The notes under the pieces are model-generated. The model saw only the letters and a program-made list of their open reading frames with translations, had not been told where the DNA came from and did not search any database. Source: Xanthobacteraceae bacterium 501b (GTDB lineage: Bacteria; Pseudomonadota; Alphaproteobacteria; Rhizobiales; Xanthobacteraceae). Taken from it: DNA of 64,000 nt. Positions 12,408-62,596 of the stretch are shown here, piece by piece. Position numbers and translations under genes: made by a program. The stretch is taken from positions 1,364,001-1,428,000 of the forward strand of contig KB899087.1 of assembly GCA_000378025.1 (NCBI GenBank), given 5' to 3'. The first letter of the stretch is position 1. Every line of letters starts with the position of its first letter.

Positions 12408-12409
12408 GG

Positions 12410-27108: not shown

Positions 27109-28505
27109 TCAAACCTCGATCTCAAGGATGCCGTGCGCCTCATAGACCGAAGGTCCTTCGACCTCCTGCGTCATCGCCAGGCCAATCGCCATCACACCGG
27201 CAGCGATGCCGTCGATCTTCTCGCGGCTCTTCTTCTTGGCCACGCAGTAATTCAGGTTTTCATCGAAGCGAACGACCGCATTACCGGCCATCCACTTGAG
27301 CACCGGGTGTCCGCCGTGATTGAGTGCACCCGACATAACTAGTCGCTCAAAATGCTTGGTTGGCTCGGCAAGCGTCGGGATGCCTTGGCGCATCTCACGG
27401 AACAGATCCGCATCGGCGCCCTCTTCCTGCAGATCGGTCAGCAGCTTCGTCGAATTCCACGGGTCGTATCCGATGGCCTCGACGCCAAATTCCTCGATAC
27501 CCTTAAGGATCGACCGCTTGAGGTAGTTCTGATCGACGACATTCCCGGGCGTCGGCGTCAGAGCGCCTGCGGCGGCCCACTGGTCATAAGGCACACTGTC
27601 GTTTCTCACCCGGGCGGCGAGCGTGTCCTCCGGCACCCAGAATTCGCAGAGCACCTGCCATTCCAAGTGATCGTCATCGGGCGGGAAAACCCAGATGAGT
27701 GCGGTCACATCCTTTGTCGACGAAACGTCGAAGGCGGCGAAGCACCTCCGCCCCCGGAATGCGGAACGGTCGGAGTTCCAAGTCTTCCAGGCATTGGCAT
27801 TCTTGGCGCACCGCGCCCACACCTTCGGGTCGATCCATCGAACGACAGCGTCGATCCATTGGTTCAGGTGATAGCACTTGAAGTGAGCCTCGGCCCGCGG
27901 GTTGTTCTTCGCTGCCGCCGCCTCACGGCGAAGGAAGTCAATCGTTGGCGAAAGGCCCAGCGACGGGTTGGCCCGCCGCCATACCGCCTCGTCCGCCCAA
28001 TCATCGTCCTTACCGGCGGCGAACAGCACCACCAGCGTGGACGGATCGTCGATCCGACCGTCGAGAATGGCGAGGCTCTTCTCCCAAAGCCCGTAACCGA
28101 CTTCGTTGGACCTGACGCCGGCCGTGGACGCATAGAGCTCGATCGGCTGGAGCCGGGCGCCCGTCCCTTGGCGAAGCGTATCGGCAAGCTCGGTGCTGAT
28201 CCATTCGTGCATTTCGTCGCCGGCAATGACCGTCGGCGAGCGCCCGTGCTTTCCCTCCGGCTTCCCGGACAGCAACTCGAAGGTCGAGCGGATCTGCGGA
28301 ATCCAGATGCTCTTCTTGAACGGAGTGACGCGCCCAGCCAACGGCGGCGAGAGCGCAATCATCGCCTTCATCTTGTCGAAGACGACTTTCCCCTGCTTCT
28401 CATCGCGGGCGAAGGCATACCCCTGCCCGCCGATGGTGCCGTCAAGCACGAAGAACAGCAGCGCGAGCGCCGATAGGAATTCGCTCTTGCCGTTCTTCCG
28501 GGGTA
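27109..28505 (-). pseudogene. Terminase large subunit, 3' part, split by the nested element
   Basis: This is the C-terminal part of TerL, starting at the codons after the inserted element. It reads KSEFLSALALLFFVLDG and continues 446 further residues. Visible parts are the Walker B-like VIAGDEMHEW (about residue 220 of the intact protein) and the nuclease-type AFDVSSTKDVT. The 5' part is at 38951-39346. Excision between the 16-bp repeats would give one 587-codon frame with Walker A PRKNGKS restored. As it stands, this half lacks a start and an ATP-binding loop, though an internal GTG could give a nuclease-only fragment. Confidence 0.92.
28490..28505. repeat. att core, left end of the nested element (16 bp)
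   Basis: The plus-strand sequence CCGTTCTTCCGGGGTA is identical to 38964-38979. The bases on both sides differ between copies. In terL it encodes (minus strand) the Pro-Arg-Lys-Asn-Gly of the Walker A motif. Confidence 0.93.
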
Positions 28506-28564
28506 GCTAAATTTTATGCAGATATTTCCATCGCTTATAGCTGCTTGTCGCGCTCATGTCGCAC

Positions 28565-29743
28565 TTACGACACCAGATCAGCGCCGAGCTTGTCCATCAC
28601 GCCAGCAACCAAGTCCGGATTTTCGAACAGATGGCCGTACCGGTCAAAGGTCATCTGGATGCTGGAATGCCCCATGATCGTCTGCACCCGCTTCGGCGGC
28701 AGGCCGCTTTCAATGAGCAGGCTCGCGCACACATGCCGGAGGGCATGGAAGCTATATTCACCCGTGAACTGTTGAGTGCGCCCTCTGCCGCCATTTGCCG
28801 CTCGATATTGCAGGCGGTGCCATGATTCCAGAATGGACGGGCCGTCGATCATTTGGCCGCCGCGCGTAGTAAAGAGCAAGTCTTCGCCGCGCCCGCCGCT
28901 CCTCAGGCGCCACTCCTTGAGAACACCCATCAAAACGCGAGCGATAGGCACGTCGCGGATGCCGGCGCGCGATTTCGGTTCATCCACGTTGCCGAGGTTG
29001 TCCGCCGAGCGCCGAACCTTGATTATCTGCCGCTCGAAATCAATATCGCACCAGCGCAAAGGTCGTATCTCGCCCTTCCGCAGGCCAGCGTAGAGTGCAA
29101 TCATCACCATGGGCTTGAGGTAGGGCGCCACACCACCCCAATGCTTCCGCTCGAACTCAGCAAGGAATGCTGCAATCTGGATCTTCTGCGGGATTTCACG
29201 AGGAGCCGCCTTCCGGCCAGGAAGGCGGAACGTGTGATCCCTGAGCACGTTGCGCCCCACCTTCGCGCGAACGAACGCAAACTGTACTGCCAGCCGCAAG
29301 CACCCGACAACATGGCCAAGACTGGCTCGAGAGAGCGGGCGATCCTCTCGATAGGCGAGATCGTCAATCCACGCTTGTATCAAGGAGGGATTAAGGTCCG
29401 TGAGCTTTTTGTTCCCGATAGTTGGGCGGATATGGTTTTCCACCCATGAAGTCATGCTGCGCAACGTATGCATGCGCAGATGATCCTTGGCTCGCACCCG
29501 CTTATCGTTATTCTCCATCCACATATCGAGGGCCTGAGAAACAGTTATGGAATCTCGGCGCGCCACATGCGTTCCATTATTAACGTCGATATGCACTTTA
29601 GACCGAAAGTCGTCTGCATCCTTTTTCTTTTGAAACGTCTCGGTCTTTCTCTTCCCGAACGCGTCGGCATATGACACCTGCCAAGCCGTCTTAATCTCGC
29701 CGGTCTTCGGATTCGTCCAGCTGCGCTTGCGAACGCTCGCCAT
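28565..29743 (-). CDS. Tyrosine integrase of the nested element
   Basis: A 392-residue tyrosine recombinase. There is an N-terminal arm-binding region, a SAM-like core-binding domain (about 65-165) and a catalytic domain with Arg222 (ALYAGLRKGE), His333-x-x-Arg336 (FHALRH), His359 (MGHSS) and the nucleophile Tyr369 (FDRYGH). All catalytic residues are present, so it should be active. Its stop lies 59 bases from the left att core. The start follows a CAGGAGAG ribosome-binding site. The DNA is lower in GC than the neighbouring phage genes. It is not closely similar to the integrase at 56028. Confidence 0.95.
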   Translation of the reverse strand: MASVRKRSWTNPKTGEIKTAWQVSYADAFGKRKTETFQKKKDADDFRSKVHIDVNNGTHVARRDSITVSQALDMWMENNDKRVRAKDHLRMHTLRSMTSWVENHIRPTIGNKKLTDLNPSLIQAWIDDLAYREDRPLSRASLGHVVGCLRLAVQFAFVRAKVGRNVLRDHTFRLPGRKAAPREIPQKIQIAAFLAEFERKHWGGVAPYLKPMVMIALYAGLRKGEIRPLRWCDIDFERQIIKVRRSADNLGNVDEPKSRAGIRDVPIARVLMGVLKEWRLRSGGRGEDLLFTTRGGQMIDGPSILESWHRLQYRAANGGRGRTQQFTGEYSFHALRHVCASLLIESGLPPKRVQTIMGHSSIQMTFDRYGHLFENPDLVAGVMDKLGADLVS

Positions 29744-29808
29744 GGCCTTGCTCTCCTGTTCTGTGGGGGAAGGCCGGCCGCACCTCCCGGGCACGGCCGG
29801 CGAGCGCG

Positions 29809-30036
29809 TTAGCGCAGACGCGCTTGAATTATCTCAAGGTTTTCCTTGGCTTCATTGAGATCTTTCATAGTGTCTATGCAGAGTATAGAGAAGGAATTAC
29901 CCGTCTCATTATCGTGCGTGTGACAGAGATAGCCCGCCATCATTGACAATGCACCGAGGCGCATCCTTGCATTCTCTAGATCATCCAAGGCGCGCGCCGC
30001 GATAACAGCGCCACACCTTTCCATCGCGTCATTCAT
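29809..30036 (-). CDS. Small hypothetical protein beside the satellite integrase
   Basis: A 75-residue, mostly helical protein (NDAMERCGAVIAARALDDLE to DLNEAKENLEIIQARLR). It starts at an ATG with a GGAGG site inside the end of the preceding S24-like gene (8-base overlap). It has no recognised family. It is AT-richer than the surrounding phage DNA. The coupling to the S24-like gene suggests a regulatory or accessory role. Confidence 0.6.
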   Translation of the reverse strand: MNDAMERCGAVIAARALDDLENARMRLGALSMMAGYLCHTHDNETGNSFSILCIDTMKDLNEAKENLEIIQARLR

Positions 30037-30457
30037 GGGCTTCACCTCCGAACGGGATGAAGACGCCCTGCACCCGACCGATCAGTTTCGCGGCGATGTG
30101 GTCTCGCGTCATCGGGCCTTCGGCCCATACAGGCCCGTAGAGACCATGCCGCGCGAACCATCCCTCGATCTCCCCTTCTGGCGTCCGCACCTGCCGAGCG
30201 ACGGTGCCGCACAGACGATAGGTGACGCCAGAGAAGTCGTCGGAGGCGCCGTAGGCGATCAGGAAGAGTTCGCCGCGCTGGGGCTCTCGGTCGCTGAGGT
30301 AGATCACCGCGAACTCGCCGCGATCTAGGTGAGGATAGAACCGATCGTCCGTGATCGGGAACGTCAGGTGTCCGCTGGGAATCTCGGTGAACGAAGGAAG
30401 GGCCCTCAGGCCGGGCTGGGGCGCGCTCGGCACCGATGGAGTGGGATGGATATACAT
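30029..30457 (-). CDS. S24/LexA-like domain protein, no HTH
   Basis: A 142-residue protein whose core resembles the S24 peptidase fold of LexA and CI: FPITDDRFYPHLDRGEFAVI, then REPQRGELFLIAYG, then KLIGRVQGVFIPFG. The usual catalytic Ser is not evident (the DDRFYP segment replaces the (G)DSM-type motif) and there is no DNA-binding domain before it. It may act as a partner or decoy for the prophage repressor, but that is speculation. Confidence 0.55.
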   Translation of the reverse strand: MYIHPTPSVPSAPQPGLRALPSFTEIPSGHLTFPITDDRFYPHLDRGEFAVIYLSDREPQRGELFLIAYGASDDFSGVTYRLCGTVARQVRTPEGEIEGWFARHGLYGPVWAEGPMTRDHIAAKLIGRVQGVFIPFGGEAHE

Positions 30458-30815
30458 GGGTGTTCTCGCGGTTTGAACCGGATTTCTAGGTCCGGGGTTT
30501 GCGCCACGATGGGGCAAACCTCACCAGCGTCAGGCTGGCACCGGGAAGCTAGAAACACCGCCGCGAGACGATGCGCCACGACCTTTCCCCCAAAGGGGTA
30601 TTGTATAGCCGTGGCCTTCCCGGCATAGTGAGCCGGTCACGCCCACGGCTGGGCGCGTCAAACTTTCGGTGTCCTCGGCCGGCAAGCCGATTTCACCTAT
30701 CGCGGCTGAAGCGCAAACCCCGGCAAGGGTCCGCTTCGGGTGTTTCTAGGCACCGCGCACAACTTCACCCTATTCGCCATTTTGTGCAAGCGAGCCCCGC
30801 AAGGGGAGCGCGCGC
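30458..30815. other. Noncoding region of the nested element with inverted repeats
   Basis: About 360 bases with no supported gene. It contains GGTTTGC/GCAAACC around an 11-base loop near 30497-30521, CCAGC/GCTGG near 30523-30537, and an 11-bp inverted match of GGGGTTTGCGC (30494-30504) with GCGCAAACCCC (about 30711). Such structure could be an operator, promoter or small RNA region between the structural genes and the S24-like gene. Nothing more can be said. Confidence 0.4.
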
Positions 30816-31247
30816 CTAGACGGGCGCCGCAGCGTCCACCAGGTCGCGCACGCTCTCGCCGGCACGGCCCTTGCCAACCTCGCCGGCCGCCCACAGGATC
30901 GCCGCCCGCAGCGCCACCAGGTCCGGCGCATTCACCAGCCGTGCGGCCATCTCCGGCGAATAGGCGATCACCTCGCCCTCGTCGCCGGTCAGGTTTTCCC
31001 AGCCGAGCAGGATGCCCCCGAGGATCGTCGCGCCCGTCACGGCCGACGCCTGCGCCTCCGTGAGCCCATCGGATGGCGTCGGTACTTCCGACCCCATCCC
31101 GGCCAGAGCCTCCTTCTGCGCGGCGCGTGCGTGGGTGCTGGTGATGCCCCGCACCTTGAGCCGAAGGTCGCCGAAGCCGGGAATATCATCCACCCAGCCG
31201 CCACCCTCGATGCGGGCGGCGTGGGTGCGTATGGTAGAAAGGTTCAT
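30816..31247 (-). CDS. Tail assembly chaperone-like protein of the nested element
   Basis: A 143-residue protein. GGWVDDIPGFGDLRLKVRGI, then ILGGILLGWENLTGD, then SPEMAARLVNAPDLVALRAA follows the same layout as the prophage chaperone at 18766-19176. Two differences stand out: it lies after its tape measure gene rather than before, and no slippery heptamer or T-like frame follows its stop. It might modulate assembly of helper tail tube around the satellite's short tape measure. Confidence 0.7.
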   Translation of the reverse strand: MNLSTIRTHAARIEGGGWVDDIPGFGDLRLKVRGITSTHARAAQKEALAGMGSEVPTPSDGLTEAQASAVTGATILGGILLGWENLTGDEGEVIAYSPEMAARLVNAPDLVALRAAILWAAGEVGKGRAGESVRDLVDAAAPV

Positions 31248-31365
31248 TGGCGGCTCCTTTCGATATCGTTGTGCCGAGGTCGGAATTCCGACCCCGGACG
31301 CGAAAGCGCCCCCGCGACGATCTCGCGAGGGCGCGGGGTTTGCGTAGTGAGCACATCCTTGCCGG

Positions 31366-32061
31366 TCAGGTGAGAAACTTGGGTGCCGGCGCCGCCAGGG
31401 CGCGCGCTGCGACGGCCTCGGCCGTGTCGCCGATGGCGTCAGGCCAAACGAGGATATTCTGGCGCTTCACGCCATCGTCGGTGATCGTGACGAACTCGCC
31501 CGCCCCTCCCGAAATGCACCTTCCGTCATGGAGAGCGTGGGCGCGTCGCCGGGCGTTCAGCACCCGGCGGGCGAACTCCACCGGCTTCAGGATCGCGATG
31601 TTCTTGAGTATCTCCGCATCCGTGAACGGGCGGATGGCGCCACCGATGGCGCACGGCCCGATGCAAACCCCGGCATCGGCGATGTGGAGGGCCGGGCGGC
31701 CGGGCGCCTCCATCGTGTCGATGATCGCTCCAGCCCATTCCCGCCGGCTCTCCGACCAGCCGGCGAACAGCACCTGAATATGGGCATTTTCGCCGAGCCG
31801 CGCGGCCCCAAAGGGCAGCCAAAGCCGCAGGATGTCCGGGAGCGCAATTACAACGGAATCGAAGTCCGCATGAGGTGGCAGCCACTCGGAGATAAACCGC
31901 GCACCATCCCCGGACCCCATGGCCATCCATCCGAAGAGGTGGCCGTTGGGCGTGTGTATCTTCGACGCGAAGCGGGACAAACGCCCGGCTTCATCGGCGA
32001 TGGCGGTATCGGCGAAGAGGATCACGCCGCCCCGATGCACAACCTGATTGATGATCGTCAT
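31366..32061 (-). CDS. Unknown protein, possible Ntn-hydrolase-like fold
   Basis: A 231-residue protein with GGVILFADTAIADEAGRLSR, then KIHTPNGHLFGWMAMGSGDG, and a long beta/alpha remainder. The early strand-turn-strand pattern and the FADT/FASKIH segments recall proteasome-like Ntn-hydrolase proteins, but no catalytic N-terminal Thr is exposed. The start has a GGAGG site and lies just after the tape measure stop. Function is unknown. It is found between two tail-assembly genes. Confidence 0.6.
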   Translation of the reverse strand: MTIINQVVHRGGVILFADTAIADEAGRLSRFASKIHTPNGHLFGWMAMGSGDGARFISEWLPPHADFDSVVIALPDILRLWLPFGAARLGENAHIQVLFAGWSESRREWAGAIIDTMEAPGRPALHIADAGVCIGPCAIGGAIRPFTDAEILKNIAILKPVEFARRVLNARRRAHALHDGRCISGGAGEFVTITDDGVKRQNILVWPDAIGDTAEAVAARALAAPAPKFLT

Positions 32062-32063
32062 GA

Positions 32064-34010
32064 TCAAACCTCCACAGCGATCATCAGGGCGGCTTGCGGC
32101 GCCACTGGCAGGGGCGAACGCGCCGTCTGCGCCCGGTCAAAGGCGATGTCGTCCATCAGCTGCTTGCGGGCATATTCCGCCGTCAGGCCGGCGATGGCCT
32201 CGGCGTTGCCACGGATCTCATCGGCCTCGGAGGAAAGCAGGCTGATGCCCCGCGAGCGCATATCCTGCTCGGCCTGAAGCCGGGCGACGAGCTTGCCCCG
32301 CTCCGCCTCGTTGGTGCCGATCAGCCGGGCTTCCAGCTCCAGCGCCTCGATCTGCGCCCGCTGGTCCTGCAAGAGGTCCGCCGCGCCCTGTCCCCGCCGC
32401 AGCTTGTTGCCGTCCGCGCCGTACTGGCTGCCGATGGCGGCAAGGCTGCGCTGGTGCGCTTCGTTGGCAAGGTCGTAATCGGCCTGCGCCGCGTTCGCTT
32501 CCTTCAGCAAGGCGATCTGCCTGCCGTAGGCGTCATTCTCGCGAGCGATTGCCGCCTCGCGGGGCGACAAGCCGGCAACGATCGAGGACCGGGTGTAAGC
32601 CTCGAGCGAGGTCTTAGCCTTGTTCTGCGCGTCGGTCAGTCCGGTGACGGCATCGCGGGCGCGCTGCGCATTCGCCTCAAGCTGCGCGGCGCGGGCGGCT
32701 ATGGCGCCCTCGGAACCGCCGAGGGCGGCGCTCTTTGCCAGAGCGTTGGCCAGGTTGCCGTCAATGGCGGCGAGCGAGGAAATCACCTTCTGCTGCGCCG
32801 CCAGGGCGGGCACCAGGTCGGTGATGGCCTTCACGCTGTCGGCATAGGTGCGCAGGGACGGCACGCCGTCGCTCGCCGCCCCGGAGAGGGCTTGGAGCGC
32901 CGCAGCGGCGCCGGGGAGCGCGCGGGCCGTCTTGCTGGCCTCGTCGGTCAACGTCAGGAGTTCGTCCGCCAACTGGCGCATCCGGCCATTGCCGGGGTTC
33001 GCTGCGGCAAGGGCGTTCACCGCCTCGCGAAACTCGGTGATCTTCGGCGTACCGGCCGCGATGGACGTCGTCAGGTCGTCGATCTGCTGTTTGAAGGGTG
33101 CGAAGCGTGCGTCCGCGCTGAAAAGCGGCTGATCGAAGCCGTTGGCGATCTGGCCATAGGCTTCGGGGCGCTGCGCCTGCACGCTGGTGCCGAGTTGACT
33201 GAGCAGCGCCTGAGACTGGTTTGCCAGCTGCTCCCGCAGCGCGGCGGCGCTCTGCTCGGCCGCGCGGCGAAGGATGGCTGTCGATTCCTCGGCGTAGTCA
33301 CGGGCGGCCGCCGTGGCATCGCCGTAGCGGTCGCCGATCCGGCCAATGATATCCTCGTGCGCCTTGAACACGTCCTCGGTGGACTTGGCCCCATCGCCAA
33401 CCGTCGAGAAGAACCACGTAGCCGCCGCCCCGGCGCTGGCGAGGCCCAGAACGGCGAGATTGAGCGGGTTGGTGACGAAGGCCATCAGGCCGGCGCCGAG
33501 GGCGCTCACGGCCCCCTTGAGGCCCCGCTCGCCAAGCTGGCCGGCAAGCTGCCCGCCCTGCTGGATGATCGGCAGGAACAACCCGCCGCCGCCGGCGATC
33601 TGCGTGCCCAGATCCATGAACTGCGCGCCCATGAGACCGACCTCATGAGTGGCAAGTTTGGTGTTGTCGTTCACCCCCTTGATCTGGTCGGAGACGCCGC
33701 CATAGCGGGTGTGCGCCATGGCGAGCAACTGGTTCTGCCGCTCCACTGTTATGAGGCCGTCCGCCCGCGCGGCGGCCAGGTCGCGCGTTGCCTTCTCCAG
33801 CTGCTTGCTGGCGGTATAGCCAGCGTCGAGCGTCCGGTTCCAGCGCTCCAACGAGCGGCCAATGCTCGCCGTGGAACGCTCCAGCCGCTCGCCCGCCGCA
33901 ACGACGGCATCATCCGCTCTGGCCAGCCCGTCCAGCTTATCCTTGGCCTGATCGACGCCGTTGACGGTCGCCTTGATATCGATCTCTCGAACTTCCCGAA
34001 GCGCTACCAT
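32064..34010 (-). CDS. Short tape-measure-like protein of the nested element
   Basis: A 648-residue protein starting DIKATVNGVDQAKDKLDGLA, followed by coiled coil. A hydrophobic stretch is at about 120-190 (with GLMGAQFMDLGTQIAGGGG), then a long Ala/Gln-rich helix. It is homologous in layout to the 1113-residue protein at 15077. It ends soon after ARKQLMDDIAFDRAQTARSP, which aligns with QLMADIQFERDQLGRGP of the prophage protein, so roughly the C-terminal 250 residues are missing. If used, it would specify a much shorter tail; alternatively it is truncated and dead. Confidence 0.82.
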   Translation of the reverse strand: MVALREVREIDIKATVNGVDQAKDKLDGLARADDAVVAAGERLERSTASIGRSLERWNRTLDAGYTASKQLEKATRDLAAARADGLITVERQNQLLAMAHTRYGGVSDQIKGVNDNTKLATHEVGLMGAQFMDLGTQIAGGGGLFLPIIQQGGQLAGQLGERGLKGAVSALGAGLMAFVTNPLNLAVLGLASAGAAATWFFSTVGDGAKSTEDVFKAHEDIIGRIGDRYGDATAAARDYAEESTAILRRAAEQSAAALREQLANQSQALLSQLGTSVQAQRPEAYGQIANGFDQPLFSADARFAPFKQQIDDLTTSIAAGTPKITEFREAVNALAAANPGNGRMRQLADELLTLTDEASKTARALPGAAAALQALSGAASDGVPSLRTYADSVKAITDLVPALAAQQKVISSLAAIDGNLANALAKSAALGGSEGAIAARAAQLEANAQRARDAVTGLTDAQNKAKTSLEAYTRSSIVAGLSPREAAIARENDAYGRQIALLKEANAAQADYDLANEAHQRSLAAIGSQYGADGNKLRRGQGAADLLQDQRAQIEALELEARLIGTNEAERGKLVARLQAEQDMRSRGISLLSSEADEIRGNAEAIAGLTAEYARKQLMDDIAFDRAQTARSPLPVAPQAALMIAVEV

Positions 34011-34621
34011 GAGCGATCTCCTGCGATGACGATGGCGGGAACGCGGGCGGCACGCTCACGAGCGCGGGCACGGGAGCGCCCCGAGGAAACGGGCGGATGC
34101 AGGCCGAATTCCTGCGGCGTCCGAAATGTGAACTTGACGGAAGCGACGTCGCGAAACCGGGCATTGGCAAGGGCCGCGACAGCCTCATAGATGCCAGCCG
34201 GCTCATAGTGCTTCTCCAGCCGGCGCGCGTAGGGTGCGACCGACAGGAACACGTACTCGTCGGCCGGGGGCACATTCCCGCCAGGCTCGATCTCCCGTCC
34301 GCCGGCATAGAACCTGTGCGAGCGCTGATACTCGCCGGTCACGAAGGGCGAGTGCTGCACCAGCATGTCGCCAATCCACTCGAACACCCGGCCGAGCCCG
34401 CCATCAAAGCGGAAGATGATCCGGCCCGGCAGGTTGACGGCTTCGAGCGGCGCGCCGGTACGGCCATCCACGATCTGCTCATAGGTCGGTTCGCGCCCGG
34501 TGGCCTGCCGGTTGGCTTGCACGCCATCAGCGAGCCGCTGCCGCGCGAAGTCCGCCACCATCCGCTTCTGCGTGGCTGGCGCCAGGTCTCGCGCCACGAT
34601 GGCCTCAACGATGGATCGCAT
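34004..34621 (-). CDS. gp10-like neck / tail-completion protein of the nested element
   Basis: A 205-residue protein homologous to the prophage product at 20745-21437. The shared blocks are the WIGDMLVxHSPxxTGxYQ-type motif, EYVFLSxxPYAR and GIYEAVAALANARF. The C terminus is basic (GRSRARARERAAR). It overlaps the tape measure start by seven bases. The start is the ATG at MRSIVEAI; an in-frame start 20 codons upstream is possible. It is the only neck gene kept by the element. Confidence 0.75.
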   Translation of the reverse strand: MRSIVEAIVARDLAPATQKRMVADFARQRLADGVQANRQATGREPTYEQIVDGRTGAPLEAVNLPGRIIFRFDGGLGRVFEWIGDMLVQHSPFVTGEYQRSHRFYAGGREIEPGGNVPPADEYVFLSVAPYARRLEKHYEPAGIYEAVAALANARFRDVASVKFTFRTPQEFGLHPPVSSGRSRARARERAARVPAIVIAGDRSW

Positions 34622-34792
34622 GGAGCGGGACACGCATACCCCCGATGTTGAAAGGTGCAGCTGCGGGAACCTTGAGCCCATAATGCTAGTGGGCGCCGAG
34701 CAGGTTCCCTTCCCGTTGTTCGCCGAGCTGCGGCGGCGTCATGGAGAAGGCGCCCGAAGGGGAAGGCGGCGACCTAAGCCGCCGCCCCCTAA

Positions 34793-36055
34793 TCAGCCGG
34801 AAACCGACATCTTCAGGAACTTGATCGCCCGCGTATCCTGCGGCGAGCCGCCGACGCGCTTGGTGGCGTAGAACTTCACGAAACCCTTCTTGGTGAAGGG
34901 ATCGCGCAGGATGCGGACGTCAACGCGGTCCACGATCACATAGCCACGGGCGAAGTCGCCGAAGGCGATGGGACAGGCGCCGCTCGCCACGTCGGGCATA
35001 TTCTCGTCGGCGACGACGGGATAGCCGAGCAGCAGCGGAGGCACACCCTGAGCAATGCTCGGAATCCAGATCGGGCGATCCTCGCCGTCGCGCAGCTTCG
35101 CAACGTCCGCGATGGTGGTCGAATTCATCAGCCAGGACGCGCCGGAGCGGTAGCCCGCCTTCAGGGTGTACACGATGTTGATCAGGGCATCGCAGCTAAG
35201 CTGGTCCACGCTGCCGGCGGCAACGTGCTGATAGAATTCGATAGAGCGATCATCATCGGCGAGGGCGCTGGTCGGCTTGGAGAGGAATCCGAGGGGCTTT
35301 TCCACGCCATTGCCGGTAACGAACGCCACGCCCTCCATTTCCGCGAAGGTGGTTGTGATCTCGCTTTCCAGCCAGCCGGCGACATCAATCATGGCGTCAT
35401 CGAGCAGCTTCTGCGTCGTGATCGGCATGGCGTAGAGCTCATTCGCCGGCACGGAAAGCATCCCCAAATCGGGGCCTTCGGTGTCGTTCCGGTCATCCTT
35501 CTCGCCAACCCAGCCCGCGGCGGTGCCGCCCTTGCTGATCGGCTGCTTGTAAGCCGACGAAGTGGAGGTGACGATGCGGGCCAGGCGACGGATCGGACTG
35601 ACGTTGCGCTGCAGGGTGAGGATTTGGCGGCTGACCTCGTCGGGCACAAGGAAGCCGCCGGACGGGTCGTCATCCGTGGAAAGAACACCGGCCGCCTTGT
35701 TGTCGACACGCAGGGTCGCCTCATCACCAGTGCGCATGTATCCGACCAGGGCAGCGCGGTGCCGCTTAACACGCGCCGGATCGCCATGGTCGTCAGCCTG
35801 ATTGGGGCTTGCCGGGCCGATGCCACGGCCGACAGCAGGCCGCACGGCGGTGCCCAGCCGCTCCACATCGTGACGAAGGGAGGCGTTCTCAGCGCGCAGC
35901 GTCGCCATGGAGGCATTCACCGCCTCATTGTGCTGCTCGAAGGCTTCGGTGAGCTCATCAACGGTCGGGGCGGCATCACCGGCCGCCGCCGTCCGAAGGA
36001 TCGCCGAGGGTGCCGGGCCAGCCGCAGCGGTATTGAGGGCATTTTTCAGGGACAT
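34793..36055 (-). CDS. Major capsid protein of the nested element, HK97 family
   Basis: A 420-residue HK97-type capsid protein. Residues 1-90 form a helical, Ala-rich scaffold region (VDELTEAFEQHNEAVNASM). The core has DDDPSGGFLVPDEVSRQIL, then TTQKLLDDAMIDVAGWLES, then EGVAFVTGNGVEKPLGFLS. The end, starting DFARGYVIVDRVDVRILRDP, is typical of the family. It is distinct from the prophage capsid at 23377. The ATG follows a TAGGAGG site. Nothing suggests decay of this gene. Confidence 0.92.
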   Translation of the reverse strand: MSLKNALNTAAAGPAPSAILRTAAAGDAAPTVDELTEAFEQHNEAVNASMATLRAENASLRHDVERLGTAVRPAVGRGIGPASPNQADDHGDPARVKRHRAALVGYMRTGDEATLRVDNKAAGVLSTDDDPSGGFLVPDEVSRQILTLQRNVSPIRRLARIVTSTSSAYKQPISKGGTAAGWVGEKDDRNDTEGPDLGMLSVPANELYAMPITTQKLLDDAMIDVAGWLESEITTTFAEMEGVAFVTGNGVEKPLGFLSKPTSALADDDRSIEFYQHVAAGSVDQLSCDALINIVYTLKAGYRSGASWLMNSTTIADVAKLRDGEDRPIWIPSIAQGVPPLLLGYPVVADENMPDVASGACPIAFGDFARGYVIVDRVDVRILRDPFTKKGFVKFYATKRVGGSPQDTRAIKFLKMSVSG

Positions 36056-36065
36056 GGAAAGCCTC

Positions 36066-36755
36066 CTAGGGCTTGATCGCCGCTGTCGCGGCACGGACGC
36101 GGGCCAGCAGGTCGCTTGCACGAGCCGGATCGCCGTCCAGATTGAGGGGGTTGCCTTCACGGAGTGTCGACCAGCCGCCAGCTGCCAACTTCACCGAAAC
36201 ACTCTTGGAGAAGCCCGCCGTATGCAGAAGGCGGGCGAACTGACGCTCGCTGGAGACGGAGGCGACATCAAGGATGCGCGCCCGCTCGTTCGCGGGGATG
36301 GTGCAGACTGAGATTTCCCTCAGATCCACCCGCAAGTAGTCGATCCCGCCATCGGCATGGCGGCGAATGTCGGTCGGAAACCGCACACTCCAACCAATAG
36401 ACAGGCCGTTGAAGTCGCCCGCCTTGAGGTGGGCCATGATATCCCGGCCACGGGTGGTGGCCATGTTCACCTCGCCGACGACATGGAGGCCCCGGTTATC
36501 CTCTTCCATGTGCACCCACTTGCCGATGGGCATCCGGCTGTCGTGAGCCCAGAGCATGGATGGCATCGTTCCGGCCTTCTTATGGGCCAGGAGTGTACCG
36601 GCGAAGGCGCCGGCCTCGATGATCCGCCCCATGCAATCTGGCGGGCCGCCAAACATGCTGCCGTAGCCCTCAATGCGCCCGGAAGCAGATCCAGCCTTGG
36701 CAAGATGCAGCGACAGGGGGAAGCCAGTAAGCGACGTAACGGGATTTGCCGACAT
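36066..36755 (-). CDS. HK97 prohead protease (U35 family) of the nested element
   Basis: A 229-residue protein with the U35 signature: GRIEGYGSMFGGPPDCMGRI, HDSRMPIGKWVHMEED with the likely catalytic His, NGLSIGWSV with the likely catalytic Ser, and LREISVCTIPANERARI. It matures the adjacent capsid protein. It is unrelated to the S49 protease of the surrounding prophage, so the head-building pair came as a unit from another phage lineage. The start has a GAGGTG site. Confidence 0.9.
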   Translation of the reverse strand: MSANPVTSLTGFPLSLHLAKAGSASGRIEGYGSMFGGPPDCMGRIIEAGAFAGTLLAHKKAGTMPSMLWAHDSRMPIGKWVHMEEDNRGLHVVGEVNMATTRGRDIMAHLKAGDFNGLSIGWSVRFPTDIRRHADGGIDYLRVDLREISVCTIPANERARILDVASVSSERQFARLLHTAGFSKSVSVKLAAGGWSTLREGNPLNLDGDPARASDLLARVRAATAAIKP

Positions 36756-36929
36756 AAGACACCTCGAGCGGAAGCAAAGCGAAAGTGCCGGGAGAACCGG
36801 CATTTGGCCTTGACCGGGCATCCCGCCCGCGCCGAGGTGCTTGGATCTAGCTCCCGGCATCCCGCCGGGCGCTGTATTGATCAGCAGCACGACGACGATA
36901 AGCAGAGCGCGCCGGCCTTGGCAAGGGGG

Positions 36930-37175
36930 TCACTGCGTCGGCGCTGTGGATTTCCCGAACATTTCCTCGATGCCGGCGGCCGGGTCGCTGCGCAGGCGCT
37001 GGGCAAGGTTATCGAGCATCACGGCCGCGCCCTCGGCGCCGTAGATCGTGAACCAGAGGCTCACTCCGGCGACCGTGAGATGGGTCGCCACCAGGTCCGG
37101 CGGCGCGCCCTGTTCGACCACCTCCGATGCGATCCGGATGAAGGGATTTTCCAGTGCCATATCTATCTCAACCAT
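36930..37175 (-). CDS. Small protein in the terS position of the nested element
   Basis: An 81-residue, helical, acidic protein (ALENPFIRIASEVVEQGAPP, then VSLWFTIYGAEGAAVMLDNL). It begins just downstream of the cos-like block at 37193-37287, exactly where terS sits relative to the matching block in the prophage. It has no visible HTH. Whether it modulates the helper terminase or capsid is unknown. No family is recognised. Confidence 0.6.
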   Translation of the reverse strand: MVEIDMALENPFIRIASEVVEQGAPPDLVATHLTVAGVSLWFTIYGAEGAAVMLDNLAQRLRSDPAAGIEEMFGKSTAPTQ

Positions 37176-37192
37176 GACCTAACCCGTTGACC

Positions 37193-37287
37193 AAAAAAAA
37201 TAATTCCGCCAATTTCGCGACGATGCACGCGCTCTTGAACAAGTGGTCCGCCCCTTAAAGCCCTAGACTTTTGACCCCCCCCCTACC
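37193..37287. repeat. cos-like block of the nested element, matches 39967-40058
   Basis: A noncoding block that begins with eight A's and TAATT, contains GCCAATTTCGCGACGA and CAAGTGGTCCG, and ends with a run of nine C's and TACC. Hand alignment with 39967-40058 gives about 77 identities in about 95 columns, with small gaps. The rest of the two elements is not similar at DNA level here, so the block is under selection as DNA. The likely role is a packaging (cos) site. Confidence 0.75.
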
Positions 37288-37750
37288 TGTCGCGCGAGCG
37301 CATCCGGGGGTCGATGCTCGATGCATCAAGGCTGCGCATCGCCTCCTCAGTCCTGAGCCTCACGCGCTCCCGCTCTTCGGGCGTGCGCTGCTGGCGAGAG
37401 GATCGCCTCTCCTCCATCTCGCGCATCATCCGCTGCTCGCGCATCCGGCGGCTGTACTCGGTCACACGCTCGTCCTTGACTTGGTCGCACACCCGCCGCA
37501 GCTCCGGCGGAGACGGGTGGAAGCCATGCCCCAGGGCGCCGGAGATAATCCGCTGCGTCGCGATGCGCAGATCGTCCGCAGCCACCACCACGCGCCCGCC
37601 CCGCTCATCCTTGAGGGCGAGCGTGAAGACGGCTTCCTCGATGCGAACGTCGGTCAAAGCCCGCCGAGGCAGAGCCCCCAACATGGCCAGCGCCTCGAGC
37701 AGATCCTTGAGGGCCGCCATGCGGGGCGGGTCCGAAACGAGGTCATTCAT
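37283..37750 (-). CDS. Hypothetical protein with charged C-terminal helix
   Basis: A 155-residue protein. The first half is a small alpha/beta domain (ALKDLLEALAMLGALPRRAL, then ERGGRVVVAADDLRIATQRI). The C-terminal 60 residues are a very basic and acidic helix (EYSRRMREQRMMREMEERRS). Its ATG overlaps the end of the replication-type gene by eight bases. It lies where the prophage has the HNH and 40552 genes. No family is recognised. Confidence 0.65.
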   Translation of the reverse strand: MNDLVSDPPRMAALKDLLEALAMLGALPRRALTDVRIEEAVFTLALKDERGGRVVVAADDLRIATQRIISGALGHGFHPSPPELRRVCDQVKDERVTEYSRRMREQRMMREMEERRSSRQQRTPEERERVRLRTEEAMRSLDASSIDPRMRSRDR

Positions 37751-38558
37751 CGGCATCACCATTCCGAAGGTCAGCCAGGCGCCGCAGCGCGTGCTCGCCA
37801 AGAGACACGCGGCGCTCTCGGTCATGCTGCGGCGATGCCGCAGGCCATGAGACATCGAAGCCCCGCCATCCGCGCAGCATCATCAGATCGGCGGCCGCGT
37901 TCGGGTCGGGTGCCTCAGCCAGCTTGCCGGCCAACAGGCGGGCCGCGTGAGGCGTCAGGGGGCAGCGGATGCGCTGGCGATGTTCGATCACCGCCTTGGC
38001 CCGCTCGGCGTCCAATACGGCCGCCAGCGCGGCCAAGGGGGTGTGCCCTGCGCACGTCCCTTTCTTCCTCGAAGGCCCCTTCTGCTCCGCTGGCGCCGTC
38101 AGCGAAGCGCCGGTTGCGCTACTGTCGTTAGACAGTGGTCGTTCTAAAAAGAGGTCGTTATCTTCCGAAGGAAGAAGGGGTGTCTGGCTGGTCACCCTAT
38201 GAGGGGCCGGCTGGTCACCCTCCCCGGCACCCTCGAAGCCGTCTTCGTCATCGACGGCGTTGTCATCCTGCGGCGCTCGATCAGGGATATGCACACGGTA
38301 ATGGTTCGCCATCTGCGTGCCCCGTTCAGAGAAACGCGGGCGGACCGAAACGTACCCTTCGGCCTCAAGCTGCCGCAGCGAGCGAGCGATAGAGCGCGGC
38401 GCGGCGCTCAAGCGCTTAGCCAATGTATCGCGGCGAATAATGCACCAGCCGTTATTATTGGTATGAGAGCCTATTACACAGAGAACTCTCAAGGCAAAAT
38501 CGGTCAAAGCTGTGTCGTAGACAGCTTCACCGGGAATAATACTGTAGCGCGGGCTCAT
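37743..38558 (-). CDS. Helix-turn-helix replication-type protein of the nested element
   Basis: A 271-residue protein. Residues 1-95 form a winged HTH of the replication initiator / primosomal type (TDFALRVLCVIGSHTNNNGW, then RRDTLAKRLSAAPRSIARSL, then LEAEGYVSVRPRF). A variable acidic linker follows, then a C-terminal domain ending RGWRGFDVSWP. It parallels the prophage protein at 41163-42215 in layout and position. It likely helps start replication of the element. It is overlapped by the excisionase-like gene by four bases. Confidence 0.75.
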   Translation of the reverse strand: MSPRYSIIPGEAVYDTALTDFALRVLCVIGSHTNNNGWCIIRRDTLAKRLSAAPRSIARSLRQLEAEGYVSVRPRFSERGTQMANHYRVHIPDRAPQDDNAVDDEDGFEGAGEGDQPAPHRVTSQTPLLPSEDNDLFLERPLSNDSSATGASLTAPAEQKGPSRKKGTCAGHTPLAALAAVLDAERAKAVIEHRQRIRCPLTPHAARLLAGKLAEAPDPNAAADLMMLRGWRGFDVSWPAASPQHDRERRVSLGEHALRRLADLRNGDADE

Positions 38559-38791
38559 TTATTACCACCCGCCTCCGGCCCGCCCAAGGTGGGCGCCTTG
38601 GCCTTGGCCTCCTGCTCAGCAAGCCATGCGGAAAGAGAGGCGCGCCGAGAGCACACCTTCTTGCCGATCTTGAACGTCGGTATCTGCCCTCTGGCGTGCA
38701 GGTGATAGACCTGCGCCGTCGTCATGTTGAGGCACTTCGAAATCGCCTCAACGCCGTAGAGCAGATCGGTAGCATCGGAGCTATCGACCAT
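38555..38791 (-). CDS. AlpA/excisionase-like HTH protein of the nested element
   Basis: A 78-residue protein with a MerR-like winged HTH: LLYGVEAISKCLNMTTAQVY, then HLHARGQIPTFKIGKKVCS, then RRASLSAWLAEQE. This is the layout of HTH_17/AlpA proteins that act as recombination directionality factors or activators in satellites and prophages. The ATG follows AAGGGGCC. Three 10-bp-phased GGCTA repeats lie just upstream (38835-38861), between this gene and the right att core. Confidence 0.82.
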   Translation of the reverse strand: MVDSSDATDLLYGVEAISKCLNMTTAQVYHLHARGQIPTFKIGKKVCSRRASLSAWLAEQEAKAKAPTLGGPEAGGNK

Positions 38792-38834
38792 GTTGCTGGC
38801 CCCTTCATTGTTGCGCCCATGTCGCGCCAAGATG

Positions 38835-38861
38835 CGGCTAGCACCGGCTAGGACGGGCTAA
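38835..38861. repeat. Three GGCTA repeats at exact 10-bp spacing
   Basis: GGCTA occurs at 38836, 38846 and 38856, within GCGGCTAGCA, CCGGCTAGGA and CGGGCTAAGC. Helical-pitch spacing in the right arm of the element, beside an excisionase-like gene, fits cooperative binding of a small directionality factor. This is an inference from pattern. Confidence 0.55.
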
Positions 38862-38893
38862 GCCCTTGAAAACGCTGTTGCCGTGAATGCAAC

Positions 38894-38928
38894 AAAAAAC
38901 CCGCCTCGGAAGGCTTCCGAAGCGGGTT
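38894..38928 (-). terminator. Rho-independent terminator at the right end of the nested element
   Basis: On the minus strand, arms AACCCGCTTCGGAAG and CTTCCGAGGCGGGTT (15 bases each, one mismatch) are followed by TTTTTT. It stops transcription coming from terS and the 5' terL fragment from entering the element, so the element's genes would be insulated from prophage late transcription. Confidence 0.85.
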
Positions 38929-38950
38929 AAGGTATTGTCATTGTTCAATT

Positions 38951-39346
38951 TTATTCTGTATGTCCGTTCTTCCGGGGTACCCAGAGCATCAGCCGCCTGA
39001 ACAGACGGACATGCTCTTCGCGCGGCTCGCCGGTTTCCTCGTCGAGCACCTCGACCGGCACTTTCCAGCCCACTAGCAGGCGGACAATGATCTCCTGCCA
39101 GCGGTTGAGCCGAAACGGCTTCCCGGCGAACCGATCCTCAGTGAGGCGAAACACCTGCGGCCACATGCGGACGGCCGCGTCGGCCTTTCCCGTATCGAAC
39201 CAGGCACCCTTGACCTGGCTGGCGCGCGCCCAGGCTATTTTGGCCCAGGCATAAACCTCCTCTTCCGAGACCGCCGTGAGCCAATCGGGCTCGGGAAACA
39301 GCAGATGCGGCGCGGCAGCGCGAACGGCCGCCTCCGCGACATCCAT
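38951..39346 (-). pseudogene. Terminase large subunit, 5' part, split by the nested element
   Basis: The first 128 codons of terL: PHLLFPEPDWLTAVSEEEVY, then RFAGKPFRLNRWQEIIVRLL, then RLMLWVPRKNG. After this the element supplies His-Thr-Glu and a stop. The normal continuation (KSEFLSALALL...) is at 28505 downwards. The start is ten bases after terS, in the usual terS-terL order. A 131-residue product lacks most of the ATPase and all of the nuclease and should be inactive. Confidence 0.92.
38964..38979. repeat. att core, right end of the nested element (16 bp)
   Basis: Identical to 28490-28505. Minus-strand reading gives TACCCCGGAAGAACGG, the codons of the Walker A loop up to the Gly. The insertion splits Gly from the essential Lys-Ser. 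Confidence 0.93.
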
Positions 39347-41162: not shown

Positions 41163-42215
41163 TCACCCGCCAATGCCCTGCTCTGCACGCCCGTCCGCCG
41201 CCGCCCCGCCCGGAGGCCCGGCGCCCGGCTTGGGCGGGTAGCGCAAGGGGAAGCTCCGCCCGGCCAGCCGGCCCCATGTGCCGTCCGCCAGCTGCGCCAT
41301 CTTCCGCGTGCCGCTGCTGAAACGGTGCCCATAGCCGGCGGCGACAAAGGCCGCGTGCCACTCGCGCCAGGCGTCGGTGCCTTCCTCGACGAAGGTCCAT
41401 TGCTCGCCGCGCTCGCCGTTGATCGCCCACAGCACGGCCCGGGCGACGGGGTCGGTCTCGACAGGCCGCACGGCCTCCGCCTTGGCCGGGGCTGGCAGGG
41501 AGGCAAATCGCTCCCAACGCCGTTCGCTCAGATAGGTCGCCGGGTCGCAGATCCGCCGCTTCACGGTGCGGCAATGGTCGACATACCGCGCCGCCATGGT
41601 CAGCGCCCCTGCCCGGTCGGCCGGCGGGAGGCGAGACCATGCCCGCAGGAACTTCACCTTGCTGGCGGCCGGGTCGGGGGCGAGCGTCGTCCACAGCGCA
41701 TCGGCCTGCGTGTCGAGCGTCTCGGCCGGGCTGGCCTCCTGCTCCCCTTCCCCATCGGAATTCAAATCACCCGCCCCGGCCCCCTGGGGGGCTTGGGGGG
41801 ATTCTTCTTTCAAGTGATGGTTAGGATGATAGTTATGGGCCTCTTCAATTTGAGGAGGGGCACTCCCCGAAACTGAGGAGGGGGCCTCCTCAATCTGAGG
41901 AGGGGGGCCTCTCCAATTTGAGGAGGGGGGCGACCCTCCGGCAGCCGGTTTCATCATCAGCCGGATCATGTCGGTGGAGCGTGAGCCATTGTCGCGCAGC
42001 CGCTCCTCCCGGGCGATCAGCCGCCCGGCCTCCAGCGCCGCCAGATGGCGCGAGACAGAGCCCGGCGCCATCTCGGTATCGTCGGCAATCTGCCGGCGCG
42101 AAGGCCAGCAGCACCCATCCTCGTCGGCATAATCGGCGAGCGCCCGCAGCACGCTCTTCGCGCCCATGGAGCCCGTCTGCTGCCGCTTCGCCCATGCCAT
42201 GGCCTCGACACTCAT
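41163..42215 (-). CDS. Winged-HTH replication protein with internal iterons
   Basis: A 350-residue protein. Residues 1-85 are a winged HTH (AMAWAKRQQTGSMGAKSVLR, then WPSRRQIADDTEMAPGSVSR, then LAALEAGRLIAREER). Residues 95-130 are a Pro-rich linker with repeated PPQIEEA, coded by four DNA iterons. The C-terminal part holds LYLSERRWERFASLP-type and WREWHAAFVAAGYGHRF segments. The layout, a DNA-binding initiator with the origin inside its own gene, is like lambda O. Its end overlaps nothing; its start overlaps the methyltransferase stop by four bases. Confidence 0.8.
   Translation of the reverse strand: MSVEAMAWAKRQQTGSMGAKSVLRALADYADEDGCCWPSRRQIADDTEMAPGSVSRHLAALEAGRLIAREERLRDNGSRSTDMIRLMMKPAAGGSPPSSNWRGPPPQIEEAPSSVSGSAPPQIEEAHNYHPNHHLKEESPQAPQGAGAGDLNSDGEGEQEASPAETLDTQADALWTTLAPDPAASKVKFLRAWSRLPPADRAGALTMAARYVDHCRTVKRRICDPATYLSERRWERFASLPAPAKAEAVRPVETDPVARAVLWAINGERGEQWTFVEEGTDAWREWHAAFVAAGYGHRFSSGTRKMAQLADGTWGRLAGRSFPLRYPPKPGAGPPGGAAADGRAEQGIGG
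41846..41931. repeat. Four iterons, candidate replication origin
   Basis: TGAGGAGGGG-type units start at 41851, 41874, 41896 and 41919 on the plus strand, spaced 23, 22 and 23 bases (about two helical turns). Three of the four are preceded by CAATTT or CAATCT. They lie inside the HTH replication gene, in a region coding for a flexible linker. Iteron phasing within an initiator gene is the pattern of lambdoid origins. Confidence 0.7.
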
Positions 42216-44308: not shown

Positions 44309-44631
44309 CAGGCCCCCTCCCCGCCATCCGCCCGCAGGGCGAGGTGGTCCACCACGGCGCCGATCGGCCCCAGGGGCACGCCGCTGCTGTCGCGCTGCAC
44401 GGCGGTGCGGAAGGCGGCGGGCGGTACGCCGTACTGCATGGCAATGGAGAGGATGGCCGCCGCGTCGCGGGCATTGGTCTCGGCGTCGGAGCCGCTCTTC
44501 GGCCCGCCGACAAACACCTCGCCCACGCGCCCGTCATCGAAGTAACCGAGCGTGACGGTGTAGAAGATATTGGCGAGCATGAAGCTCATGCTCTCGGCAT
44601 AGCGCCGCACGGGAAGCATTTCGCGCGTCAT
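44308..44631 (-). CDS. TSCPD-domain protein
   Basis: A 107-residue protein with YTVTLGYFDDGRVGEVFVGG, then AAILSIAMQYGVPPAAFRTA, then GPIGAVVDHLA. This is the TSCPD domain, found at the C terminus of B12-dependent ribonucleotide reductases and as stand-alone phage proteins. The usual Thr-Ser-Cys-Pro-Asp is not conserved here. A link to nucleotide supply is plausible but not shown. It sits between two methyltransferase genes with short overlaps. Confidence 0.8.
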   Translation of the reverse strand: MTREMLPVRRYAESMSFMLANIFYTVTLGYFDDGRVGEVFVGGPKSGSDAETNARDAAAILSIAMQYGVPPAAFRTAVQRDSSGVPLGPIGAVVDHLALRADGGEGA

Positions 44632-45827
44632 TCGGCGGCGTCCTTTGTGGTGAGATATGCGAAGAGGCCATCGGTGGGCGCGGCGGAAGGAACGAACGCC
44701 TGCGGCACGCGCCATTCGCGTTCGATCCGCCGGCGGGCGATGTCGGCATATTCAGGGTTGAGCTCGATCAGCACCGCCAGCCGGCCATGCCGCGCGGCCA
44801 CCAGCCCCGTGGTGCCAGCCCCGCCGAACGGGTCGAGCACCAGCCCGCCCTTGGGGCAGCCGGCGAGAATGCAGCGCTCCGCCAGTTCCGGCGGAAAGGT
44901 CGCGAAATGCGCGTCGGAAAAGGGCCGCGTCGCCACCGGCCACACACCCAGCGGCGCCGGCTCATAGTTCCGCAGGTTGCGGCCCTCGCCGCGCGGCGTC
45001 GCCTCGATTCCGGTGTGATTGATGCCGCCGGCGTGGCGCGGCCCGGCTATGTCGGCCGCGCGCAGCTTCTCCGCGACGCTCTCGCCCTTCTGCCGCCCCT
45101 GCCGGTGCCGCGACCCGTGACCGCCAGACCCCGTGTCCCAACCGTCCGGCGTCTTCCAGACGCGCTTGTTGCCCGTGTCCGCCCGACGGCCTGGCTCACC
45201 CCCGACATAGGAGCCGCCACGGAACCCGTTCGCGTCTTCGGTGGACGAACGCCCCTGCCGTACCGCCTCGGCGTCATAGAAATAGCGCTCGCTCTTGGAG
45301 AGCAGGAACACCTTCTCATGCGCGGTCGCCGGCCGGTCACGGATGGACTCCGGCATCGGGTTCGGCTTCGCCCAGATGATTTCCGAGCGCACCCACCAGC
45401 CATCTTCCTGCAGCGCGATGGCAAGCCGGTTTGGAACCATGCAGAGGTCTTTGGGCTTCAGCAGGCCGCCAATGGTCGAGAACGGCTTGTCGCGAAACGT
45501 CCGGTCGTCGCCACCCGCCGCCTTGCAGTCGGCCGCGCTGCGCCCGTTCGGCGTGGTGGCATAGCAGTCGCCATAGTTGAGCCAGAGCGTGCCCGTGGGC
45601 TTCAGCACCCGCCGCACCAGGCGAAACACATCGAGCATCACCTCGATATGCTCGCCCAGCGTCCGCTCCAGGCCGATCTGCCCGTCGACGCCGTAGTCGC
45701 GCAGGCCCCAATAGGGCGGCGAGGTGACGACGCAATCGACGCTATCCGGCTCCATGGCCGCCAGCCGCGCCCGCACATCGCCAAGCAGGATCGAGACGCG
45801 CCCGTCGAGAATGACAATGTCGTTCAT
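44628..45827 (-). CDS. DNA N4/N6-type methyltransferase
   Basis: A 399-residue beta-class methyltransferase. The catalytic TSPPYWGLRDYG is at 35-46, AKPNPMPES is typical of phage and CcrM-like enzymes, and the AdoMet-binding DPFGGAGTTG is at about 332-341. SPPY is used by both N4-cytosine and N6-adenine enzymes, so the modified base is not certain. With the cytosine-5 enzyme it would give the phage two modification types. A long upstream frame is shadow; the start is at NDIVILDG. Confidence 0.9.
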   Translation of the reverse strand: MNDIVILDGRVSILLGDVRARLAAMEPDSVDCVVTSPPYWGLRDYGVDGQIGLERTLGEHIEVMLDVFRLVRRVLKPTGTLWLNYGDCYATTPNGRSAADCKAAGGDDRTFRDKPFSTIGGLLKPKDLCMVPNRLAIALQEDGWWVRSEIIWAKPNPMPESIRDRPATAHEKVFLLSKSERYFYDAEAVRQGRSSTEDANGFRGGSYVGGEPGRRADTGNKRVWKTPDGWDTGSGGHGSRHRQGRQKGESVAEKLRAADIAGPRHAGGINHTGIEATPRGEGRNLRNYEPAPLGVWPVATRPFSDAHFATFPPELAERCILAGCPKGGLVLDPFGGAGTTGLVAARHGRLAVLIELNPEYADIARRRIEREWRVPQAFVPSAAPTDGLFAYLTTKDAAE

Positions 45828-57354: not shown

Positions 57355-57380
57355 TTCGAATCCTGCTGCCCCGACCAGCC
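57355..57380. repeat. attR core of the large prophage
   Basis: Identical over 26 bases to 2502-2527. Here it is only the 3' end of the tRNA, without the rest of the gene. It lies 91 bases after the integrase stop. Confidence 0.93.
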
Positions 57381-62558: not shown

Positions 62559-62596
62559 GGCCCAATCGCCTCCCTCAAGCCCCTTCGGCAGCACCG

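Follow-up and report, generated by a model that had tools for sequence, protein, structure and literature searches.

A probable helper-embedded phage satellite in the terminase gene of a tRNA-Pro prophage of Xanthobacteraceae bacterium 501b

A stretch of 64,000 nucleotides from Xanthobacteraceae bacterium 501b (contig KB899087.1, positions 1,364,001 to 1,428,000), hereafter the window, was analysed for an element of about 10.5 kb that splits the terminase large subunit gene (terL) of a prophage. Prophage and insert together form a composite at 2502-57380, which measures 54,853 bp from repeat to repeat and about 44.4 kb without the insert. It is bounded by a 26-bp repeat (2502-2527 and 57355-57380) that overlaps the 3′ end of tRNA-Pro (2448-2524) at one side and lies just past the prophage integrase gene at the other (56028-57263, plus strand; Phage_integrase 2.6e-7, figures after family names being E-values). 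The late genes of this prophage, which we call the helper, look complete and comprise terS, terL, portal, S49-type protease, capsid, adaptor, neck, a 1113-aa tape measure (15077-18418, TMP_2 7e-44) and a J-like tip. Within terL lies a 16-bp direct repeat, found by repeat search, whose copies at 38964-38979 on the side of the N-terminal half and 28490-28505 on the side of the C-terminal half (both read on the minus strand) are 10,474 bp apart. It is the sole such pair in the window at up to two mismatches (2 matches against 0.03 expected; 2 were reached in 0 of 100 shuffles). The N-terminal part of terL (38980-39346, minus strand), which has 122 codons ahead of the VPRKNG block and matches PHROG 9 (terminase large subunit) at E 9e-8, runs from 39346 into the repeat and meets a stop three codons later (RLMLWVPRKNG-HTE-stop). 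The C-terminal part (27109-28489, minus strand, 459 codons from the Walker A Lys) emerges from the other copy as PRKNG-KSEFL and matches the Pfam families TerL_nuclease (2e-34) and TerL_ATPase (4.6e-13). Both halves are open, and both are assigned to terminase large subunit by PHROG.

All the listed genes of the element are on the minus strand and thus co-oriented with terL, as in embedded satellites. The first gene inside the left (5′) end encodes a Xis/AlpA-like helix-turn-helix (HTH) protein (38555-38830, start probably near 38788), which matches Pfam HTH_17 (E 2e-5) and TIGR01764 (E 1e-3), both under the curated cut-offs, and PHROG 66 (E 1.6e-4), and is 90% identical in the relative G433/L054. 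It is followed by an O-like replication-initiation protein (37743-38558; PHROG 270 E 5e-16, PHROG 678 E 3e-12) and two small genes, one of which (37283-37855, here p37283) has no NCBIfam or Pfam family. Then come an HK97-type prohead protease (36066-36890; Peptidase_S78 3e-22, TIGR01543 1e-28), an HK97-type major capsid protein (34793-36160; Phage_capsid 7e-78, and TIGR01554 1e-105 on the probable start at 36055), a neck or tail-completion-like protein (34004-34681, PHROG 16336) and a 648-aa tape-measure protein (32064-34010, PHROG 8892 1e-27). Beyond them lie a protein without family match in Pfam, PHROG and NCBIfam (31366-32067), a tail assembly chaperone-like protein (30816-31247, PHROG 313 6e-8) and two small proteins in 29809-30517 without Pfam family, of which that at 30029-30517 also lacks a PHROG or NCBIfam match and that at 29809-30045 was compared with Pfam only. 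The last gene before the right (3′) end is a tyrosine integrase (28565-29794; Phage_integrase 6.5e-26, Phage_int_SAM_3 2.6e-9), so that a Phage_integrase domain, flanking direct repeats and a xis-like gene are found together, as in tyrosine integrase elements generally. The repeat with its span, the single terL frame obtained by joining at it, and the complete integrase gene and the excisionase-like gene at opposite ends had been described in the first-pass annotation, and each was recovered here.

Pfam, PHROG and NCBIfam searches of the element proteins gave no match to a terminase or portal family, and none to a primase in the family searches. Because capsid, protease, tape-measure and tail-chaperone genes are present and no terminase was found, the element is likely to be a satellite that needs the very gene it interrupts. 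Its capsid is about 26% identical to the helper capsid and about 40% to those of the best-ranked annotated phages, and its neck protein is 50% identical to that of the helper (20745-21437); PHROG 16336 is matched by both, and by the helper copy also PHROG 169 (tail completion/Neck1). In a protein search against annotated phages all integrase matches stayed below 60% identity (25.6-28.9% among the 20 matches listed), and among named genomes the nearest integrases of this type belong to an alphaproteobacterium and to Roseibium.

To see the uninterrupted form of the gene, IMG/VR was searched with the terL C-half alone, which gave 26 loci, one apparently of the same genome, and the two halves were then located on each locus independently. 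A single open frame in which the halves stand exactly 18 nt apart (six codons that read VPRKNG or nearly so) is present in 23 of the 25 other viral loci, and terL of the window was therefore almost certainly whole before insertion; an N-half match was not found in the two distant loci L220 and L222. Judged from its reading frames, the window's terL copy cannot give full-length TerL until the element leaves. To that extent the first-pass inference that integration switches off packaging until excision is supported, excision and the packaging block belonging to the mechanism proposed below. Its view of terL as a genuine attachment (att) site is borne out by the homologues that align across the junction, by the open halves and by two relatives at the Walker A codons of clearly different terL genes, G433 (both sides) and G434 (right side only). 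That annotation had also put the cut between the Gly and the catalytic Lys. The split at Walker A holds, but this placement is over-precise, as crossover may fall anywhere in the 16 bp; the 7-bp core of G433 (TGCCGAA) would place strand exchange at the V/L-P-K codons, immediately ahead of the Gly/Lys edge. Also too narrow was the idea that Walker A is a privileged att site, since nine further sites are occupied by relatives, spread over terS, terL, portal, protease, capsid and tail-region genes (for three of the sites only the right side is known), and we rejected Walker A as a uniquely privileged site.

These relatives were collected in several searches. The window integrase retrieved 21 IMG/VR loci, in nine of which (the window's own record L055 included) the integrase is directly followed by part of a late gene or, in L067, by the terL end. 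The targets in the nine are terL Walker A (L055, L056 and L057), the capsid portion of a fused protease-capsid gene (L060 and L061) and, in single cases, the terL 3′ end (L067), the ClpP protease (L069), the capsid C-terminal part (L070) and the terL nuclease region (L071); in the remaining 12 a late-gene position was not demonstrated. A survey with an integrase profile recovered 31 matches, spread over 30 of the 397 genomes searched in the order, and 9 matches, each in a different genome, among the 385 searched in the class; the window's match is in both sets. Apart from the window 37 loci were fetched (29 order, 8 class; some cut by contig ends), one further match having no locus, and two of them, G285 (portal) and G304 (terL), are demonstrated in late genes. 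A smaller search of 61 genomes added G016, of the same genus as the window. In all, 13 related elements, one of them that of the window, are situated within a helper late gene or at its end, the genes being terL (at four positions), terS, portal, ClpP protease, capsid and a tail-region gene; four of the elements are known from one side only.

In the nine elements (window counted) for which both parts of the interrupted gene are available, xis adjoins the 5′ part and int the 3′ part, and all are co-oriented. The sites in terL are Walker A (window and G433), the 3′ end (G439, which departs from the splitting pattern in that the gene is left nearly complete) and a point near Bcep176 residue 467 (G304). 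Others are a protease-capsid fusion at PAJU2 residue ~380 (G436 and G437), a lambda-type portal near residue 418 (G285), and terS and a tail-region gene for elements 1 and 2 of G016. As the two sides of G285 and of G304 lie on different contigs, they were paired by the residues that they match in homologues (12-422 and 415-508 of portal; 3-470 and 465-569 of terL). Only the right side was seen for G434 (terL Walker A), G441 (ClpP protease), G442 (capsid) and G443 (terL), whose left sides were not found in their records. Seven elements are on one contig or record, and six of these measure 9.1-10.5 kb, the seventh (G439) 16.0 kb. It may be noted that the helper ClpP proteins of G434 and G441 (L177 and L186) are 97% identical over their shared part, and the satellites sit in different genes, terL and ClpP respectively. 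Also, the terL C-part of L054 continues without a change of frame into an N-acetylmuramidase that bears a peptidoglycan-binding domain (11315-13069), which is either a terminase-endolysin fusion or an assembly artefact.

The G016 case bears on how integrases and backbones are combined. Its element 1 shares with the window satellite a xis of 83%, a replication protein of 86% and a p37283 of 72% identity, against only 32% for the integrase, and it sits in terS while terL of the G016 helper is intact; by these comparisons the pair would be a natural integrase exchange. The same helper holds a second satellite in a tail-region gene that has no Pfam family and whose best phage matches are weak tail-fibre ones. 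Both embedded satellites of G016 (L192/L193) carry a small gene 97% identical to a homologue in L054.

An integrase tree of 59 rows was built, for which L255 and L258 had been set aside in advance and a duplicate, L244, removed; it does not include the integrase of G016 element 1, and the bootstrap of the careful tree had not fully settled. The 13 rows labelled late-gene, among which is counted the ambiguous G440 (L068), where the integrase stands just 5′ of an uninterrupted capsid gene, are all excluded from a clade of 43 rows (support 100/99), to which every other row belongs except L004, L058 and 11capE, the last an enterobacterial satellite discussed below. The late-gene label changes 4 times on the tree against a shuffled mean of 11.9 (0 of 500 shuffles as low), and the late-gene rows look like a grade. 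Our guess is that the 43-row clade consists mostly of tRNA or chromosomal integrations, which was seen directly for L066 and taken from the flanks for the rest. L066 (G444) is a 9.2-kb tRNA-integrated element with a 51-bp repeat, an HK97 capsid, a protease and a related integrase; it is not embedded, and such a free-standing satellite could represent the ancestral state. L058 (G435) has a 19-bp repeat whose left copy is beside a tRNA.

The ends of the elements recur as well. The identity cores are 16 bp in the window, 7 in G433, 11 in G436 and in G437, 16 in G439, 8 and 7 in elements 1 and 2 of G016, 12 in G285 and 7 in G304. Equally long words were met in 3 of 200 control windows for the window, 5 for G436, 1 for G437, 0 for G439, 35 and 127 for G016 elements 1 and 2, 1 for G285 and 129 for G304; some control windows may overlap true sites, and G433 was left out of these controls, its junction core being the 7-bp TGCCGAA and not the different 9-bp word chosen by the script. 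Between the cores, within the elements, lies a tandem arm motif, GCGACA-N5-GCGACA (11 bp copy to copy), present in 8 of 13 right ends some 49-58 bp before the core (controls 5 of 650) and in 8 of 9 left ends 153-166 bp after it (controls 15 of 650, with windows from the same records). In the window the right copy is at 28543-28562, about 58 bp before the core, and the left copy, GCGACA-N5-GCAACA, at 38806-38825, about 153 bp inward of it (both minus strand). A hairpin with T run, starting 52-64 bp inward of the core, occurs in 8 of 9 left ends; the same rule is satisfied in 29 of 900 random windows and in none of 9 right ends. In G433, the ninth left end, inspection by eye shows a comparable hairpin that includes G-U pairs. 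The window's predicted intrinsic terminator of this kind lies at 38892-38927 (minus strand), 52 bp from the core start. Since motif and terminator were both first noticed by eye, their counts confirm a pattern and are no blind test.

On its anatomy, precise insertion, gene content, co-orientation, intact homologues, late-gene relatives and recurring ends, we consider it probable that the insert is a helper-embedded, capsid-encoding phage satellite of about 10.5 kb residing in the 44.4-kb tRNA-Pro prophage. The satellite integrase would take the conserved helper terL codons around Walker A as its attB, and TerL would then be absent until excision. Late transcription would probably end at the left-end terminator, short of the satellite genes and of the helper genes that follow (portal, protease, capsid and tail). 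On helper induction Int and the Xis-like protein would excise the satellite precisely, whereby terL and the late operon would be restored for both elements. For its own particles the satellite may then contribute protease, capsid, neck protein, tape measure and tail chaperone, and borrow the terminase, portal, tail tube and adsorption parts of the helper. Its mobilisation would depend on the surrounding prophage, to judge from the terminase, portal and tail genes that it lacks. A general rule that the satellite shortens the tail was dropped: the tape measures in the window are 648 and 1113 aa, but the G016 helper's own is a homologue of similar length.

Several points weigh against this interpretation. 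The excised and circular forms are inferred, and their junctions were not observed. Searches of viral contigs gave no second copy of the exact element beyond L053, an IMG/VR record apparently of the same genome. The late-gene integrases form no single clade (0% of 200 bootstrap trees), and by the rule used the tandem motif is missing in 5 of 13 right ends. The identity blocks of G433, G304 and the two G016 elements are only 7-8 bp and, for the last three, were matched in length in 129, 35 and 127 of 200 controls; such cores are not significant alone, and those junctions therefore rest on gene continuity. Many of the named functions are suggested by remote homology. Finally, the competence of the helper is uncertain: the genome has three more capsid loci of HK97 type, the packaging genes of which might stand in for the split terL, and these loci could supply or confuse helper functions.

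A satellite lifestyle of this kind is known. Tommasini, Mageeney and Williams described in 2023 the helper-embedded phage-inducible chromosomal islands (HE-PICIs) of Enterobacteriaceae, with type 11capE in E. coli NRG857C (PMC10111431); the comparisons made here refer to portions of that paper. As in the window, HE-PICIs are small satellites co-oriented with the prophage late gene they occupy, often with their own capsid gene; related integrases target late genes repeatedly, a tandem arm motif stands on both sides of attP, and two satellites may share one helper. For the enterobacterial satellites it was also published there that a helper late gene is off until the satellite excises, and excision following composite replication is supported by the published data. 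These likenesses, together with an HTH/AlpA-like gene, would suit a member of the enterobacterial clade that has moved into the present host, and so would the ClpP split of G441, which falls at residue 151 of a 294-aa homologue, or about 108-114 on the CLP_protease profile (interpolated, right side only), close to the HE-PICI site C:CLP_protease:110 (PMC10111431). Such an origin is nevertheless very improbable in our judgement. The window integrase is 21.9% identical to that of 11capE over 302 aa and is separated from it by a very long tree branch (one HE-PICI integrase was compared). Membership of the clade was rejected on this identity together with the opposite gene topology and the lack of a primase match. 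Here the downstream end is occupied by int and the upstream end by xis, whereas in 11capE int and an HTH gene are both upstream, and the HE-PICI order of zones (int with AlpA, Bro, primase, late) is replaced by one with xis first and int last, and an O-like protein stands in place of the primase annotated in 11capE (PMC10111431). In the window protease, neck, tape-measure and chaperone genes accompany the capsid, and the bacterial hosts are other ones. The arm motif is GCGACA-N5-GCGACA instead of the TGTATTGC given in the paper, TGTATTGC itself not having been searched for in the element. By the rule that found the left-end terminator here there is none in the left end of 11capE (500 bp examined), and our reading of the terminator runs contrary to the passive read-through that has been proposed for that element (PMC10111431). 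The published HE-PICI sites, as far as the portions used here go, may include one at Walker A. The element is thus apparently, as its genes and ends would have it, a new and convergent lineage of this lifestyle, and among the matches listed in a search of open-access literature (titles and abstract openings, a scope outside which lie most subscription papers and preprints) none was on this lineage.

Two further explanations were weighed. The insert could be a small defective prophage that integrated by chance in another prophage and is now decaying; it has phage structural genes, the family searches found in it no terminase, portal or tail-tip genes, and an att repeat alone suits any integrative element. 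We find this unlikely, as decay is not expected to reproduce a recurring size (9.1-10.5 kb in 6 of 7), a recurring architecture of the ends or the backbone shared with the same-genus element in terS that has a different integrase, and the integrase, capsid and terL frames are all open. Alternatively the insertion might serve the helper or the host as an excisable packaging silencer that keeps the prophage dormant, a form of regulated gene integrity, which is a known category discussed for HE-PICIs (PMC10111431) and agrees with TerL being unobtainable from the split locus until excision. To this too we give very little credence, for the element has virion genes of its own and its relatives differ both in target gene and in helper, an indication of selfish transfer.

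The putative satellite also resembles capsid-forming phage-inducible chromosomal islands (cf-PICIs) in having its own capsid genes and borrowing helper tail parts, as far as the genes tell. The cf-PICIs carry their own terminase, portal and head genes. Identity with them was rejected, as the element has protease and capsid with no match to a terminase or portal family and is embedded in a helper. Satellites of the Staphylococcus aureus pathogenicity island (SaPI) and phage-inducible chromosomal island-like element (PLE) types integrate in bacterial chromosomal sites. They share with it capsids made or redirected for a smaller genome but, in the portions of the reports used here, redirect the capsid protein of the helper (PMC8569155, PMC12409344, PMC10945586).

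A fuller account may be offered tentatively, for which our confidence falls a little short of an even call. An independent satellite lineage would have converged on helper late genes, its integrases moving between packaging and capsid genes and being swapped between backbones. With the terminator the insertion would act as a double lock, one late gene being split and the late operon silenced beyond it, and excision would be the switch that starts late expression for both elements. The particles would be hybrids in which the satellite's own capsid and tail-length ruler are combined with the terminase, portal and tail of the helper. The terminator lock and this mixed particle, with its own capsid and tape measure and borrowed terminase and portal, are directly testable proposals.

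The present results suggest that helper-embedded satellites are not confined to the lambdoid prophages of enteric bacteria. The same solution has been arrived at by integrases of another sort, in elements whose arm motif differs and whose gene order is the opposite one, and it can therefore be asked why helper late genes are good homes; candidate reasons are conserved codons, a guaranteed helper and control of the helper late operon. For annotation, a split in the terL, portal or capsid gene of a prophage is not necessarily a sign of decay, and the insert may be excisable.

A few other features of the locus may be mentioned. A Bradyrhizobium phage has genes in common with the helper. The helper encodes a DnaA-like protein (46165-47403) in which the ATPase and the C-terminal DNA-binding domain are both present; such a protein is unusual as a phage replication gene. 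It also has two DNA methyltransferases (42212-44308 and 44628-45941), one of C5-cytosine type and one other. Outside the composite, a serine recombinase gene on the minus strand (60876-62600) terminates within tRNA-Glu, where another integrative element may start.

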